64,000 bases of DNA. Origin: Prochlorococcus sp. AG-402-L09 (lineage in GTDB: Bacteria; Cyanobacteriota; Cyanobacteriia; PCC-6307; Cyanobiaceae). The notes beneath the pieces are model-generated. The model saw only the letters and a program-made list of their open reading frames with translations. It was not told where the DNA came from and made no database searches. The stretch is from contig QCIK01000002.1 in NCBI GenBank assembly GCA_003216715.1, positions 62,001-126,000 of the forward strand. Direction: 5' to 3'. Shown in pieces: positions 43,806 through 49,158 of the stretch (position 1 is the first letter of the stretch; each line of letters begins with the position of its first letter). The position numbers and the translations under genes are program-made.

Positions 43806-44262
43806 TAATGAAACCTAGTTAAAAAATAGATTTTCACAGGTTTTTTTGAAGAGAATACGTCTTTAAAAAAGCTGAGTAATCTATTGTAAAAAGGTATACA
43901 CTATTATAATAATTCAGGATGGTCTACTACGGAAGAAATCTTTAGATATGAATTTTTTATTGGTTTGAACGTCCAAAACCAAAGTCCCTTTAGATTTTTT
44001 GATTTAATATTGAATTGATTGCAACTAAACTACTGAGATACATAGGTATAAAAACATTCCCATCTATAGGATTATTTGTAAATGTCAAATTCTATATTAA
44101 AAAAAACTTGATTTGACAAAGAATTTAACTAATTTCTATTCATAAGATAAACAAATCATTAACTGAATTATCATCAATGTAAAGGAAAGAAGAAGAGAAT
44201 ATTAAAGAATTGAAGATTCATATAATGCCATAGTAAATATAAAGAATGAATCGTATTAAGTT
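43806..44262. other. AT-rich noncoding stretch downstream of the tRNA gene
   Basis: About 455 bases without a coding frame that I can support. It is very AT-rich, has poly-A runs, and no clear hairpin with a T-run. It marks the left side of the small-protein island; whether it holds an old insertion point next to the tRNA is not shown by any direct repeat I can see. Confidence 0.6.
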
Positions 44263-44439
44263 ATGAGTGCTGACTATCTACAGGCATACCAATCATTTTT
44301 CGATTACTCTGATAAAATATCATCTACTAAAATTTCAAAAATTTCATACCTTTTGAAATTAAAAGCACAGAGTAATTCAATATCTGATTTAGATAAAAAG
44401 CATAAAGCATGGGGACAGAATCAAGTTATCTTTAAATAA
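44263..44439 (+). CDS. Small hypothetical protein, 58 residues
   Basis: An ORF starting MSADYLQAYQSFFDYSDKIS with SKISYLLKLKAQSNSISDLD and HKAWGQNQVIFK at the end. No membrane segment. The mixed polar, aromatic residue content is unlike random AT-rich translation. It stands alone in the island, with a structured element 143 bases downstream. No family recognised. Confidence 0.45.
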   Translation: MSADYLQAYQSFFDYSDKISSTKISKISYLLKLKAQSNSISDLDKKHKAWGQNQVIFK

Positions 44440-44581
44440 ATTTATTTTATATTTGTATTTGTATTTGTATAAATAATTATATGAATTAATTATTTTTTTA
44501 CTAGTAGTATTTTATTTTAATTTATTATTTTAGCTTAAAATGTTATACTTGCCGTTTTGAATAATTATTGCTATTAATTTA

Positions 44582-44637
44582 TTGAGGGTGATTGGAACAT
44601 ATTGAAGCTACCCAACATTAAGCTTCGTCATCCTCAA
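44582..44637. other. Nested inverted-repeat element (structured RNA or two-way terminator)
   Basis: Outer arms TTGAGGGTGA (44582-44591) and TCATCCTCAA (44628-44637) can pair over 10 positions, one being G-T; inner arms GAAGCT (44604-44609) and AGCTTC (44621-44626) pair perfectly around an 11-base loop. A 12-base bulge lies on the left side and 1 base on the right. It ends 4 bases before the stop of the convergent oxidase-like gene. No long T-run follows on the plus strand, but AATTTTTAAG follows. Confidence 0.5.
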
Positions 44638-44641
44638 ATTT

Positions 44642-45190
44642 TTAAGGGTTAATACGTTCCTCTATCCATTCACCTCTTTTGATCCATCGCCTTCTTGTAT
44701 GAATTGGTTTCTTAAGAATCAATTGATCAACATGAGTTATGTTAACGGTTAGTAAAATAAAATTTTTGTTTAATTTTAAATCTTGCTTAGATTCAAAATC
44801 ATACTTTCTATCCATAAAATGATGATCACGAGGATTTGGCCAACTCCACATTAATTTAGAATTTTTATTTAGTTTTTCCCAATGACTAAGATTTTTATTC
44901 CCCAAACAAATTCGAGATATTCCTCTAAGTCTAAACTGACATTTTGATCTTGAAAATAACCAACATATTTCCACGTTATTATTTAATTCTAATTCATGAT
45001 ATTTTTCACTTCTTTTATCAGTAAATATTTCCATATCATAGGAATCACTCCATCCTCTAAAAACAACAGTTCTAACTCTAGGAGTATTATCACTAGCTAT
45101 TGTGGCTAATTGAACCCATCTTGATGAATTAATTTCGCCATCTTTTTCCTGAGCGGAACTAATATGGGAGAACCATGGAGGAGTAATAAT
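44642..45190 (-). CDS. PPOX-class FMN-binding (pyridoxamine oxidase-like) protein
   Basis: The frame reads as a flavin-binding split-barrel protein: RWVQLATIASDNTPRVRTVV and FRGWSDSYDMEIFTDKRSEK give the FMN-binding N-terminal half, VEICWLFSRSKCQFRLRG the middle and ending WIKRGEWIEERINP. Homologues start near a PPW-FSHISS-like N-terminus, and here this part is present but has no ATG, GTG or TTG; the first ATG (45034) would remove half the barrel. In-frame ATT codons at 45188-45190 or 45185-45187 are the likeliest start; the upstream in-frame stop is at 45209-45211. Substrate unknown. Confidence 0.65.
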   Translation of the reverse strand: MITPPWFSHISSAQEKDGEINSSRWVQLATIASDNTPRVRTVVFRGWSDSYDMEIFTDKRSEKYHELELNNNVEICWLFSRSKCQFRLRGISRICLGNKNLSHWEKLNKNSKLMWSWPNPRDHHFMDRKYDFESKQDLKLNKNFILLTVNITHVDQLILKKPIHTRRRWIKRGEWIEERINP

Positions 45191-45307
45191 GATATTTCTA
45201 ATATAGATCTAAGGATATATATATTATAATTAAATGTTTATTTCATGTTAATAAAGTAATAGTTTATGCTAATTATTAATTCAAATAAAATTAATAATAG
45301 TTAAAGA

Positions 45308-45448
45308 TTATTGTTCCTCCTCATCATTTCCAATTCTTATTTCTACCCCTACAAAAGTAGCAAATAAAACGATTAGTAATCCAATTATTAACTTTAAGAG
45401 GCCAAAATGAGCTTCTCGCTCCGGTGAGTAAATGAAATCTTGAATCAT
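45308..45448 (-). CDS. Small single-span membrane protein, 46 residues
   Basis: An ORF starting MIQDFIYSPEREAHFGLLKL with one span (about residues 17-35) and an acidic tail EIRIGNDEEEQ. The polar start with EREAHFG, one clean span and charged end are coherent. It lies 15 bases downstream of the next gene's stop, same strand, so both may be co-transcribed. No family recognised. Confidence 0.5.
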   Translation of the reverse strand: MIQDFIYSPEREAHFGLLKLIIGLLIVLFATFVGVEIRIGNDEEEQ

Positions 45449-45463
45449 TAGTTAATAATACAT

Positions 45464-45670
45464 CTATTTTTCTTCTTCCCAATCTTCTTCTGCCTTATCG
45501 AGAATATCTTCAACAGTATTATCAAAGGTTTCTGCTACTGAACGCAACATTTTAGAAATAGTTGAATCAGGACAAGCAAGATCTTTTTGGATGGTTTCTG
45601 CACAGTCTTTTATTTCTTCCCATGCGTCTACCAGCACTTGAGAATCTACCGGTTTCCAATCCTCTTTCAT
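45464..45670 (-). CDS. Small acidic helical protein, 68 residues
   Basis: A soluble, strongly acidic protein starting MKEDWKPVDSQVLVDAWEEI, with two predicted helices (DAWEEIKDCAETIQKD and ISKMLRSVAETFDNTVEDI) and an EEDWEEEK tail. Two tryptophans and two cysteines make a chance ORF unlikely. It precedes the 46-residue membrane protein gene on the same strand with 15 bases between. Function unknown. Confidence 0.55.
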   Translation of the reverse strand: MKEDWKPVDSQVLVDAWEEIKDCAETIQKDLACPDSTISKMLRSVAETFDNTVEDILDKAEEDWEEEK

Positions 45671-45765
45671 TGATAGTCACCCCAAAAAGGATAGTTAATT
45701 AAGATTTGATTACTTTTTTATTTTAGCTTTTTCCATGTTAGATACTGTCTTGGTTTCTTGATTTT

Positions 45766-45870
45766 ATGAAAGGCGCGACTACAAATGCTGATTTTCACGA
45801 CTATGACAATTACTCAAAAGTTATCAACAAACTTCGCGTAAGCAGAGGCATCGTTAAATATGACTACTGA
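45766..45870 (+). CDS. Micro-ORF, 34 residues, overlapping the next micro-gene
   Basis: An ORF starting MKGATTNADFHDYDNYSKVI and ending GIVKYDY, whose TGA overlaps the next ATG by 11 bases. Composition is less AT-driven than its surroundings. It has no counterpart before the second copy of the micro-cassette, so it may be an upstream frame or a separate peptide. Low confidence. Confidence 0.3.
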   Translation: MKGATTNADFHDYDNYSKVINKLRVSRGIVKYDY

Positions 45871-45934
45871 AATACAACAAGTATTAGATCAAGTCGAGGC
45901 AAACCTCTCAAGAAGGGAAAACGAAAAAGTTTAG
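45860..45934 (+). CDS. Micro-protein, copy 1 of the LSR-type pair, 24 residues
   Basis: An ORF of 24 residues with EIQQVLDQVEANLSR as its core, an amphipathic helix. The gene at 46404-46559 contains a matching ELQQVLAQIEATLSR core: 15 of 23 aligned residues are identical, and 11 of those 15 use different codons. That excess of synonymous change shows that the peptide, not only the DNA, is kept. It is followed by a MLLPKP micro-gene in both copies. Confidence 0.6.
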   Translation: MTTEIQQVLDQVEANLSRRENEKV

Positions 45935-46047
45935 GAAAATTCTAAAAATACATAGTTTTTCTCATTTCAAGAAGTTTCAAACCTTTAATTCTTATTTACG
46001 AATTTTGAAAACCGCCTATAAATAAGTATAGAGATCATAATTCAATC

Positions 46048-46107
46048 ATGCTTTTGCCTAAGCCAGTTAGACCTGTTGATTCTGAAAAAAAAGGTAAAGA
46101 CAATTAA
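46048..46107 (+). CDS. Micro-protein MLLPKP, copy 1, 19 residues
   Basis: An ORF of 19 residues starting MLLPKPVRP and ending with a basic/acidic tail. A second gene (46637-46693) begins MLLPKPIRP; of nine aligned codons four differ synonymously, one gives Val to Ile and four are identical. A basic, proline-rich start of this length is unusual. A terminator follows 55 bases later. It lies 114 bases behind the LSR micro-gene. Confidence 0.6.
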   Translation: MLLPKPVRPVDSEKKGKDN

Positions 46108-46162
46108 TCCTTAATAACATCTAAGCATTTTAGTTAAAATTAATTATTCGTACAATTAACTA

Positions 46163-46199
46163 AGAGCATATATGCATTTGCAATATATGCTCTTTTTTT
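46163..46199 (+). terminator. Strong intrinsic terminator
   Basis: Arms AGAGCATATAT (46163-46173) and ATATATGCTCT (46183-46193) are perfectly complementary over 11 bases with a 9-base loop, followed by seven T. It closes the transcript of copy 1 of the micro-cassette, which supports that these micro-genes are expressed as one unit. Confidence 0.8.
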
Positions 46200-46403
46200 C
46201 TTATTATAAACAAGACATTTTTCTAAAGAATGTATTTATATAAATATAATTTAATAGTTTTATTTTATATGTCATTCAATTAAGAATTTACTATTGACAT
46301 CAAGAAAATCTTTGGCAGATTTGAAGAACTTGCTTCTCTATAAGATTCTTAAATAAATGTTTCTAGTTTATTTAAGATAAATAATTGATTTTTCATTATC
46401 TCT

Positions 46404-46559
46404 ATGAAAACTGCATCTAAAGAACTTCAAAAACTTAGATCAATGGCTGAGTCCTCATTGAATAAAACCGCTGAGCTGCAACAGGTTTTGGCTCAGATTG
46501 AAGCCACTCTTTCAAGGGTAGAAGTTCAAAAAGTCATTGAAAAGAAAAATAATCATTAA
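46404..46559 (+). CDS. Micro-protein, copy 2 of the LSR-type pair, 51 residues
   Basis: An ORF of 51 residues starting MKTASKELQKLRSMAESSLN, containing ELQQVLAQIEATLSRVEVQK and ending EKKNNH. It is mostly amphipathic helix, like a short coiled coil. It is the paralogue of the 24-residue gene at 45860, extended at the N-terminus. It is followed 77 bases later by the second MLLPKP micro-gene. Confidence 0.65.
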   Translation: MKTASKELQKLRSMAESSLNKTAELQQVLAQIEATLSRVEVQKVIEKKNNH

Positions 46560-46636
46560 AAATACTTAAATTAGTAGCATTAAATGCAGATTTCCTATTT
46601 TAATATGATTAAAAAGGGAATAGAATTTCAAATTTT

Positions 46637-46693
46637 ATGCTTCTACCTAAACCTATACGTCCTTCAAATAAAAATGATAAAAATAAAAAGTAA
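46637..46693 (+). CDS. Micro-protein MLLPKP, copy 2, 18 residues
   Basis: An ORF of 18 residues beginning MLLPKPIRPSNKNDK and ending in lysines. It pairs with the gene at 46048; the first nine residues agree apart from Val/Ile. The conserved core LLPKPxRP is the part under selection. No terminator as clear as that of copy 1 is seen. Confidence 0.6.
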   Translation: MLLPKPIRPSNKNDKNKK

Positions 46694-46778
46694 AATGGCC
46701 TCAACAACTATTATCAATGATTTATTTTAATAGACGTTAAATTTAATAGATAAATTTATGAATTAATTTTTGAATCGA

Positions 46779-46892
46779 ATGATATACTTAAACTATGTAC
46801 TTATTGCTATATATTTTTTGTTATTTCTTGCTACGAATCAAAAATATAGATTAGCATTGATAGGCAACATTCGCGTCATCTTTCCTAACTGA
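46779..46892 (+). CDS. Possible membrane micro-protein, 37 residues
   Basis: An ORF starting MIYLNYVLIAIYFLLFLATN, so an N-terminal span of about 17 residues, then QKYRLALIGNIRVIFPN. The layout is that of a small anchored peptide. It might equally be a chance frame in AT-rich DNA. Confidence 0.35.
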   Translation: MIYLNYVLIAIYFLLFLATNQKYRLALIGNIRVIFPN

Positions 46893-46996
46893 TAAAAATA
46901 ATTTTAATAAATAAATAATATTAATGGGCGGATTACACTACTAATGTTGTCCATACTTTCATGAATTTTTAAGCATGATAGAATTTTAAAATAATC

Positions 46997-47242
46997 TTGA
47001 TGATTTCTTTTATTTTTAGATTTATCCTGACAGCGTTAAATAAATTTAATGTAAGATTCAAAGAAAATAAGAATTATGTACTTGGTATGTTTCAAACTAA
47101 TTTTTCAAAAATCAATCAGAATCAATTAGTATCTTCTAATATTGACAAGAAGTATTTAAGCGATTTGACTGATATTAAAGAAAATTCTTATTCAACCTTA
47201 AACAATGATGAGGTCATTTTGGAATCTACCATAGCAAAGTAA
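46997..47242 (+). CDS. Possible small protein, 81 residues
   Basis: An ATG-started ORF with MISFIFRFILTALNKFNVRF at the start and an acidic C-terminal half with DIKENSYSTLNNDEVILES. The N-terminal 18 residues are hydrophobic. The composition is close to that of noncoding AT-rich DNA, so this is a weak call. No family recognised. Confidence 0.35.
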   Translation: MMISFIFRFILTALNKFNVRFKENKNYVLGMFQTNFSKINQNQLVSSNIDKKYLSDLTDIKENSYSTLNNDEVILESTIAK

Positions 47243-47455
47243 ATATACATATTAAGGTAAGGTAATTATCCTTTCGATTGCAATGCAATCCTTAGATTAT
47301 ATAATTATCGTTAAATATTCCTTTGTTATTTATATTCCTAGAGGTATAAATAAATGAAAAAAAATAGAGAAGAACATTAATTATCTTATAAATTAAGTAA
47401 TTAATACCGATTTCCAAGTAAATAATTACTAATTTTATATATTATACGAATATGT

Positions 47456-47647
47456 TTAGTGTGTTATAAAATGGTGAATAACTAGAGAAAGCAGAAATCC
47501 AGTCCAGATTCCTTTTATCCAACTTAAAACTAGCATTTGATAATTACTCAAACGGAAATGGTTTTGAATTGCAAGAGCGGCTCTTTTATCAATATCAATT
47601 AATGAGTAGGCTTGTACATTTTTAATATTAAATAATTTTCTTGTCAT
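47456..47647 (-). CDS. Small membrane protein, 63 residues
   Basis: An ORF starting MTRKLFNIKNVQAYSLIDID, then KRAALAIQNHFRLSNYQML, and a C-terminal span of about 18 residues (WIKGIWTGFLLSLVIHHFI). The basic, helical middle followed by one C-terminal span is the layout of a tail-anchored protein. No family recognised. Confidence 0.45.
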   Translation of the reverse strand: MTRKLFNIKNVQAYSLIDIDKRAALAIQNHFRLSNYQMLVLSWIKGIWTGFLLSLVIHHFITH

Positions 47648-47914
47648 ATATTAACCTATAGGTTTGCTTTGTTATCATACGATATAAAGGTTATTATAAA
47701 AGAACAAATCAATGACAAACAATTTCTATGTTCGATTGATATCTTATGAAATAATAGTTATTAAAAATAATCGTAGATTTTTATAAATGTTTTTCTAATA
47801 ATTATTATTATACTAAATCTTACTAATTTATGTCTGAATTATTAAACAAATATTATCTCACTCTTACAGCATTTTTTTGATAGAATATACTTTATTAAAT
47901 CATTATTAATATTA

Positions 47915-48046
47915 ATGAAATACATTGACCATGATTTTTCACAACAAAATGAAAGAATTATCTTATTACTATCAGAATTAAACCAAACGCTTGATCTATA
48001 TTATGAAGAAGCAATTGATAATGAATTTGAATCTTATAAACAATGA
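47915..48046 (+). CDS. Small acidic helical protein, 43 residues
   Basis: An ORF starting MKYIDHDFSQQNERIILLLS and ending in EEAIDNEFESYKQ. It would form one amphipathic helix with a Leu-rich face (IILLLSELNQTLDLYYEE), a possible coiled coil. It lies alone in the island. Weak but coherent. Confidence 0.4.
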   Translation: MKYIDHDFSQQNERIILLLSELNQTLDLYYEEAIDNEFESYKQ

Positions 48047-48282
48047 GAAATATTCGAAAAAAAAAATGACAAGAGGATGTCAGTTCTTTTAGTGAATATC
48101 TATTCATATGAAAAACCAGACAACCCGCTCGCATAAATTATATTTTCAAAAAAAGCACTTGTAATTTTGATTAAATTTGTTAATTTTTTAATATATTCAT
48201 TTTATTTCCTTTTTGAGCATTTATCTAAAAATTGGTTTTTAATCAATTTTAACACCACTAAAATTTTTCTATTCATCTAAAA

Positions 48283-48393
48283 ATGACATGTAACTGCCAA
48301 CACTGCATAGAAATTAAAAAACAGGTTGATAGAGCTGAAAAAAGGCAAGCAAATTTATTTAAAGCAAGGATTCATAAATTGAAAATTAGGTAA
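48283..48393 (+). CDS. Micro-protein with CNCxxC motif, 36 residues
   Basis: An ORF starting MTCNCQHCIEIKKQVDRAEK and ending RIHKLKIR. Three cysteines within six residues (C3, C5, C8; H7 adjacent) followed by a long basic helix. This could bind a metal, but nothing else supports that. It stops 3 bases before the convergent gene 48397. No family recognised. Confidence 0.45.
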   Translation: MTCNCQHCIEIKKQVDRAEKRQANLFKARIHKLKIR

Positions 48394-48396
48394 TTA

Positions 48397-48606
48397 TCAA
48401 TTTTCATATGGAATGACAGGTATTTTTAATCTTAATTGAGGTTTATTATTATTTGATTTGACTTTTAGATTTTCTTGATTTTTTTCATAAAATACTTTAT
48501 TTTCTTTTTTTGCCTCAATATTAACAAAAAAGAAATATATTGCTATTAATCCAAAATATGGTAAAAGATTTTTTACATTTTTCAGGATAGTATATATCGA
48601 TTTCAT
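48397..48606 (-). CDS. Small membrane protein, 69 residues
   Basis: An ORF starting MKSIYTILKNVKNLLPYFGL with a span AIYFFFVNIEAKKENK; the C-terminal part is basic and polar (KPQLRLKIPVIPYEN). LLPYFGLIAIYFFFVNIEA looks familiar from small proteins of picocyanobacteria. It converges on gene 48283 with 3 bases between. Function unknown. Confidence 0.5.
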   Translation of the reverse strand: MKSIYTILKNVKNLLPYFGLIAIYFFFVNIEAKKENKVFYEKNQENLKVKSNNNKPQLRLKIPVIPYEN

Positions 48607-48819
48607 TTTATGTTTATTAATCTACTTAGCCCTACTACTATAGTTTCTCCTAAGCATTAATGCAAAGATTTGGGTATACTTATCTAAAATTTTATTAATA
48701 TCACTATAAAGTATTAAATAATTAAATTAATAATAATCTGAATAACATTGTTTAAGTTACGGTTTCTATCACCACAAAGTACTTATTTGTTTATTAATAT
48801 TAAATTTTACGGTAATAGG

Positions 48820-48900
48820 ATGACTATTGAAAAGATTAAAGCTGCGGAGAAACGGATAAAAGAATTACAGCTTTTAATTAAAAGTTGGTCTAAAAAGTAG
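48820..48900 (+). CDS. Micro-protein, 26 residues, helical
   Basis: A frame starting MTIEKIKAAEKRIKELQLLI and ending KSWSKK. It encodes one strongly amphipathic basic helix with heptad-like spacing of I, A, I, L, L. Such a periodic design is less likely by chance than its length suggests. It lies 51 bases upstream of the 68-residue membrane gene on the same strand. Confidence 0.4.
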   Translation: MTIEKIKAAEKRIKELQLLIKSWSKK

Positions 48901-48951
48901 CTCACGTTTGGACTCAATTTTAGTTAAATTGAGAAAAGTGACTACAACCAA

Positions 48952-49158
48952 ATGCTATCTTTAGCAACTGCTTTATTTTTTCCAGATTATGGGACTAATG
49001 GTGTTCCTTGGGATTTAATACTTTTACACTTTTATTTTTTTGCGATATTCATACCTTTTATTGTGATTTTTAATGCGGCTAAAAGTTCAGATCGTTCAAA
49101 TCCACATAGGTTAAAAGATCAAACTACTAAATACCCAGATTTACATCCACGTGCCTAG
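48952..49158 (+). CDS. Small membrane protein, 68 residues
   Basis: An ORF starting MLSLATALFFPDYGTNGVPW, with one span LILLHFYFFAIFIPFIVIF (about residues 23-41), then NAAKSSDRSNPHRLKDQTTK and ending PDLHPRA. The C-terminal part is polar and looks like a real protein. No family recognised. Confidence 0.5.
   Translation: MLSLATALFFPDYGTNGVPWDLILLHFYFFAIFIPFIVIFNAAKSSDRSNPHRLKDQTTKYPDLHPRA

Follow-up and report, generated by a model that had tools for sequence, protein, structure and literature searches.

Small soluble cyanobacterial proteins that bind a larger protein include NirP1, PirA and the glutamine synthetase inactivating factors IF7 and IF17. Small RNAs are also known from these bacteria. 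Yfr106-108 are LL-specific Prochlorococcus sRNAs in NATL2A (PMC7368042), and Yfr103 has an imperfect palindrome that is conserved between -29 and -58 relative to its start site (PMC5069720).

The locus described here contains two types of very small ORF, called helix and LPKP, and lies in the window, the 64,000 nt stretch of DNA that was analysed (G000:C2:62001-126000, part of a 1.6-Mb draft genome). Relatives with a name in the genome collection are single-cell genomes and MAGs of Prochlorococcus, and we infer that the source lineage is the LLI (NATL-like) clade of Prochlorococcus. Intactness of LPKP-A was counted in the 30 same-genus Prochlorococcus genomes with an assembly that reaches the locus, and helix-B and LPKP-B were counted in the 29 genomes with the locus. 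Wider searches used a genus set of 41 genomes and a family set of 300 genomes.

The initial annotation described a helix ORF followed by a short peptide ORF, present twice on the + strand in identical order, and direct reading bears this out. Between the helix copies 15 of 23 residues are identical, 11 of these with different codons, and the short peptides differ synonymously at four of nine codons and by one Val/Ile exchange. The helix copies are true paralogues, as a search of the genome with copy B retrieves copy A (E=1e-7), and the repeat is genuine, far exceeding what chance would give. Related genes were also found in relatives, LPKP in this genus and the helix across Prochlorococcus. 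However, the further proposal that the ORFs are kept as peptides by protein-level selection holds for two of the four, LPKP-A and helix-B, and is not supported for helix-A and LPKP-B. As a whole, the locus is probably best explained as two genuine tiny genes (LPKP-A and helix-B) accompanied by two decaying paralogues. The features are listed below; helix-A was originally reported as 45860-45934.

45812..45949, + strand, helix-A relic, read as what is left in frame of a ~50-aa gene; its homology to helix-B spans two stops in that frame
45963..45994, + strand, conserved upstream block with the near-palindrome AAGTTTCAAAC at 45972-45982, a candidate regulator site
45995..46022, + strand, predicted sigma70-like promoter of LPKP-A (TTTACG, 16-nt spacer, TATAAA)
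46048..46107, + strand, LPKP-A microprotein gene, MLLPKPVRPVDSEKKGKDN, with a 17-codon core
46162..46199, + strand, predicted intrinsic terminator of the LPKP-A transcript (-16.5 kcal/mol, z=-4.5)
46294..46299, + strand, TTGACA, -35-like element of helix-B, about 105 nt 5' of the ATG
46404..46559, + strand, helix-B, a 51-aa conserved helical small protein
46637..46693, + strand, LPKP-B, paralogue of LPKP-A, MLLPKPIRPSNKNDKNKK

LPKP-A was intact in all 30 genomes. Its dN/dS is 0.020 (bootstrap 0.006-0.041), the codon variants comprise 29 synonymous and 4 non-synonymous changes, and the pairwise identities at codon positions 1, 2 and 3 are 0.95, 1.00 and 0.64, i.e. third positions vary freely (pS 0.52) and the amino acids do not. 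Neither indels nor stops were found in the first 17 codons in the genus genomes carrying the gene. Past residue 17 the tail is free, and reads DN, ED, DD, DS, LE, DHISH or nothing. Thus, an intact frame and purifying selection on the amino acids across relatives, as expected of a protein-coding microprotein gene, were both found. Judged from the sequence comparisons, LPKP-A is a protein-coding, standalone tiny gene.

The distribution of LPKP-A is narrow. The exact degenerate pattern MLLPKP[VI]RP was found in 22 of the 300 family genomes, every one in this genus, and the reversed control gave 0. An LPKP profile scored E values of about 1e-11 in the pattern-bearing genomes and no better than 0.087 in other genera, which is noise. 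The pattern was not found in viral contigs, nor was the 601-base locus found in phages. Within the genus LPKP-A was found in 30 of 41 genomes. The remaining 11 are drafts that appear not to have assembled this region, since they either lack MetG (6 kb away) as well or have it on a contig that stops short of the locus. True loss in two of these (G185 and G255) was considered and ruled out, as MetG is absent from both drafts.

Upstream of LPKP-A the order is AAGAAGTTTCAAAC, then TTTACG (45995-46000), the spacer and TATAAA (46017-46022). The motifs are 0.83-0.97 identical in pairwise comparisons (TATAAATA of the predicted promoter reaching 0.97) and the spacer 0.72. The upstream block itself has identities of 0.83-0.88 vs 0.43-0.60 in the flanks, and its near-palindrome reads AAGTTTCAAACTT in many relatives. 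When the genome was searched for a wider regulon sharing the palindrome and TTTACG, only the LPKP-A site was found. The strong terminator that the initial annotation placed after copy 1 is confirmed by its folding energy and by compensatory changes in relatives; the stem is retained in most of them, with several pairs preserved by changes on both sides. LPKP-A therefore has the signals of its own transcription unit, judged by sequence.

A short transcript with a terminator is also what would be expected if the function lay in the RNA, either as a regulatory RNA or as a leader/attenuator, with translation of the ORF serving solely to control it. Prochlorococcus has many LL-specific sRNAs, Yfr106-108 among them, and the transcript of LPKP-A could be identical with sRNAs published in PMC7368042. 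However, third positions are free here while the amino acids are fixed, consistent covariation in the transcript is limited to the terminator hairpin, and Rfam covariance models gave no match in 44000-49000 up to E=1. Conserved alternative hairpins of the leader peptide/attenuator kind, in front of a structural gene on the same transcript, were not found. Behind LPKP-A there is also no obvious gene to be attenuated, as helix-B, which follows it, has a conserved promoter-like element (TTGACA) of its own. We consider a function at the RNA level quite unlikely and favour the microprotein.

The helix-A frame at 45812-45949 reads TQKLSTNFA*AEASLNMTTEIQQVLDQVEANLSRRENEKV*ENSKN (asterisks mark stops), with an in-frame TAA upstream of the copy-A ATG and an in-frame TAG at the C-terminal end. 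With the 51-aa helix-B as query, copy A was matched over 46 residues with both the TAA and the TAG inside the match, and the match to the helix family (46 bits) likewise runs across the stops. As the in-frame match passes through the TAA, homology to helix-B begins well 5' of the ATG chosen in the initial annotation, and the 24-aa peptide proposed there (45860-45934) corresponds to the open stretch between two nonsense codons of a broken gene. Among the 30 genus genomes, about half have an open ~50-aa frame at this position, and in the remainder it is stopped, frameshifted or N-terminally lost, at differing places. The open copies (n=14) have a dN/dS of 0.25, compared with 0.088 for helix-B. 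We regard helix-A as the relic of a ~50-aa paralogue that stop codons have broken. We also weighed whether helix-A arose by a frameshift from ORF 45766-45870, which overlaps it, and discarded this, as the in-frame homology continues through the stop codon.

The proposal that all four ORFs, including the 24-aa copy-A helix, are kept as peptides can draw on the fact that this stretch begins with ATG and retains the conserved core, and on a dN/dS below 1 in the open copies. The two in-frame stops, the stops or frameshifts at different places in about half of the relatives and the poor retention of LPKP-B, found in only 8 of 29 genomes, argue against it, and we judge it very unlikely. LPKP-B lacks the LPKP-A promoter block and has a dN/dS of 0.20. 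It is missing in most relatives, and one of the 8 retained copies has a TTG start.

Helix-B, initially given as a 24-mer, is a 51-aa ORF that is full length in 28 of the 29 genomes and truncated in one, G296, which retains LPKP-A without any intact helix. At its -35-like element ATTGACAT is nearly invariant in the 29 genomes. The AlphaFold2 model is a single helix of residues 2-50 (pLDDT 93.7). Positions 8, 11, 15, 18, 22, 25, 29, 32 and 36 hardly vary and fall in a heptad a/d pattern, which suggests a short coiled coil. Amphipathicity was marginal in a hydrophobic-moment test, as 396 of 5000 shuffles were equally high. Searches of phages, IMG/VR, PHROGs and the PDB with the helix gave no matches or insignificant ones; no homologues were present in phages or viral contigs that would make it a phage gene. 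In G296 and G266 (L194, L215) the MetG matches hold one in-frame TAG, and G296 is stopped in helix-B too; these stops may reflect either sequencing error or decay.

Helix relatives occur across Prochlorococcus, including HL-like and HNLC genomes. The HL-type relatives (MDKTKEQLEKLREVAEASLTKTDELQKVLAQIEALMSREE...) and L092 and L093, which are of HNLC type, are found 3' of a gene that, from its sequence, we take to be pstB-like. Between this gene and the helix gene, the HL/HNLC-type relatives L092, L093 and L024-L031 have a conserved hydrophobic ORF of ~29 aa (like MKNFPFLPFLIFAGALITTATVGLPVFNS), some 180-310 nt 5' of the ATG of the helix, together with a GTATAAATACCTATATAGT promoter-like element that is strongly conserved. 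This ORF may be another unannotated membrane microprotein.

In a tree built from 51 columns, the helix-A sequences, including the single one of G315, form one clade (99/89) and the HL-type sequences a separate clade (100/99). Helix-B clusters with copies from G315 and G313, weakly resolved. G315 has one cassette copy, in the order PPOX, 46-aa ORF, 68-aa ORF, open helix-A, LPKP-A and terminator, and helix-B is absent after the terminator. A third, B-like helix is found elsewhere in L184 (G313) and L185 (G315), directly 3' of a 58-aa membrane ORF (MGFTGNELIKAADFLHIESTTGLF...), with ATGATATG at the junction. Because G315 has helix-A at the locus and a B-like helix elsewhere, the split between the A and B helices probably predates the G315 branch. 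The presence of LPKP-B in 8 of 29 genomes indicates that copy B formerly held both genes. As LPKP-A and helix-B are kept and helix-A and LPKP-B are eroding, the paralogous duplicates have decayed reciprocally.

A different view is that LPKP-A and the helix form one functional pair, as partner proteins or a toxin-antitoxin-like system, and that the duplicated cassette was kept since both cooperate. The order is identical in both copies, 29 of 30 genomes retain at least one intact helix and at least one intact LPKP, and G315 has a single cassette. However, the members decay independently at each copy. Their promoter-like elements are separate, so neither copy is a simple operon. In HL and HNLC genomes the helix relatives are present although LPKP is absent, and the helix can thus function by itself. 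A toxin is also not suggested by MLLPKPVRPVDSEKKGK, which on direct reading is proline- and lysine-rich without a membrane segment; LPKP-A is hydrophilic and is not a short hydrophobic membrane peptide like the type I toxins (Ibs/Ldr-like). A paired function is unlikely, and the term "two-gene micro-cassette" used initially is overstated, as each of helix and LPKP can be lost while the other is kept, and their transcription signals are separate.

Two neighbours deserve mention. The frame of the PPOX-type flavoprotein (window 44642-45190, - strand) is open upstream of the listed ATG (PPWFSHISSAQ...), and at the start used in G315 (MPPW...) there is no ATG, GTG or TTG here; a non-canonical start or start loss is possible. 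A 68-aa acidic protein (window 45464-45670, - strand) is divergent from the locus and, with the ORF 45308-45448, shows conserved synteny in relatives (93 % identity in G086).

Returning to the reading as two tiny genes and two decaying paralogues, the following mechanism is proposed. A transcript of roughly 170 nt would start from the sigma70-type promoter of LPKP-A and end at the intrinsic terminator. Its synthesis would probably be controlled by a regulator bound to the near-palindrome, immediately 5' of the -35 element. Translation of this transcript would yield a soluble peptide of 17-19 residues. LPKP-A is most likely a partner-binding microprotein, i.e. a peptide ligand with a basic tail whose invariant LLPKPxRP segment would dock on a larger partner. 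Helix-B, separately promoted, most likely acts as a short coiled-coil adaptor in the form of a 51-aa single-helix protein. LPKP would have been kept at copy A and the helix at copy B while the remaining two members eroded.

A 17-residue conserved product with its own promoter and terminator signals is far below the usual gene-calling limits, and LPKP-A would be a microprotein that marks one lineage of an abundant ocean phototroph. That so streamlined a genome retains it implies a real use. In addition, the locus offers a clear natural example of duplicates that decay reciprocally, here at a scale of 17-50 codons, and helix-A illustrates that a relic can be taken for a peptide when the paralogues of a single genome are compared.

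The LL-clade sRNAs of Prochlorococcus (Yfr106-108 and Yfr103) are short standalone transcripts, as proposed for LPKP-A, and the palindrome of Yfr103 (PMC5069720) parallels the near-palindrome upstream of LPKP-A. However, the substitutions in LPKP-A are of the coding type and it has no Rfam match, and marine Synechococcus and MIT9313 have Yfr103 but not LPKP-A. The helix has weak HMM scores to DUF883 (PF05957; E 0.0044, 17.4 bits vs a gathering cut-off of 25.4 for the N-terminal domain) and DUF5798 (PF19111; E 0.01, 16.5 vs a cut-off of 27), and no Pfam family above cut-off or NCBIfam match was found for it. LPKP is too short for protein-family scans and these negatives, with those from PHROGs and the PDB, concern the helix only. 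The motifs were absent from the literature searched, in line with the initial statement that no description of the pair was known. LPKP is a new orphan microprotein and the helix an undescribed small-protein family. As LPKP is unmatched outside one genus, there is no context from which to transfer a function.

LLPKPxRP resembles the LPRPRP-type core of the proline-rich peptides that bind the ribosomal exit tunnel (oncocin/apidaecin class), which we take as a lead only; the proline spacing differs and LPKP carries no hint of secretion. That LPKP-A is an endogenous regulatory peptide of a core machine such as the ribosomal exit tunnel, fixed as a freestanding 17-residue regulator in one Prochlorococcus lineage, is extremely unlikely. 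If LPKP binds a larger partner as proposed, it would be comparable to NirP1, PirA and IF7/IF17, which likewise come from short genes; these are several times longer than its 17-19 aa and have known partners.
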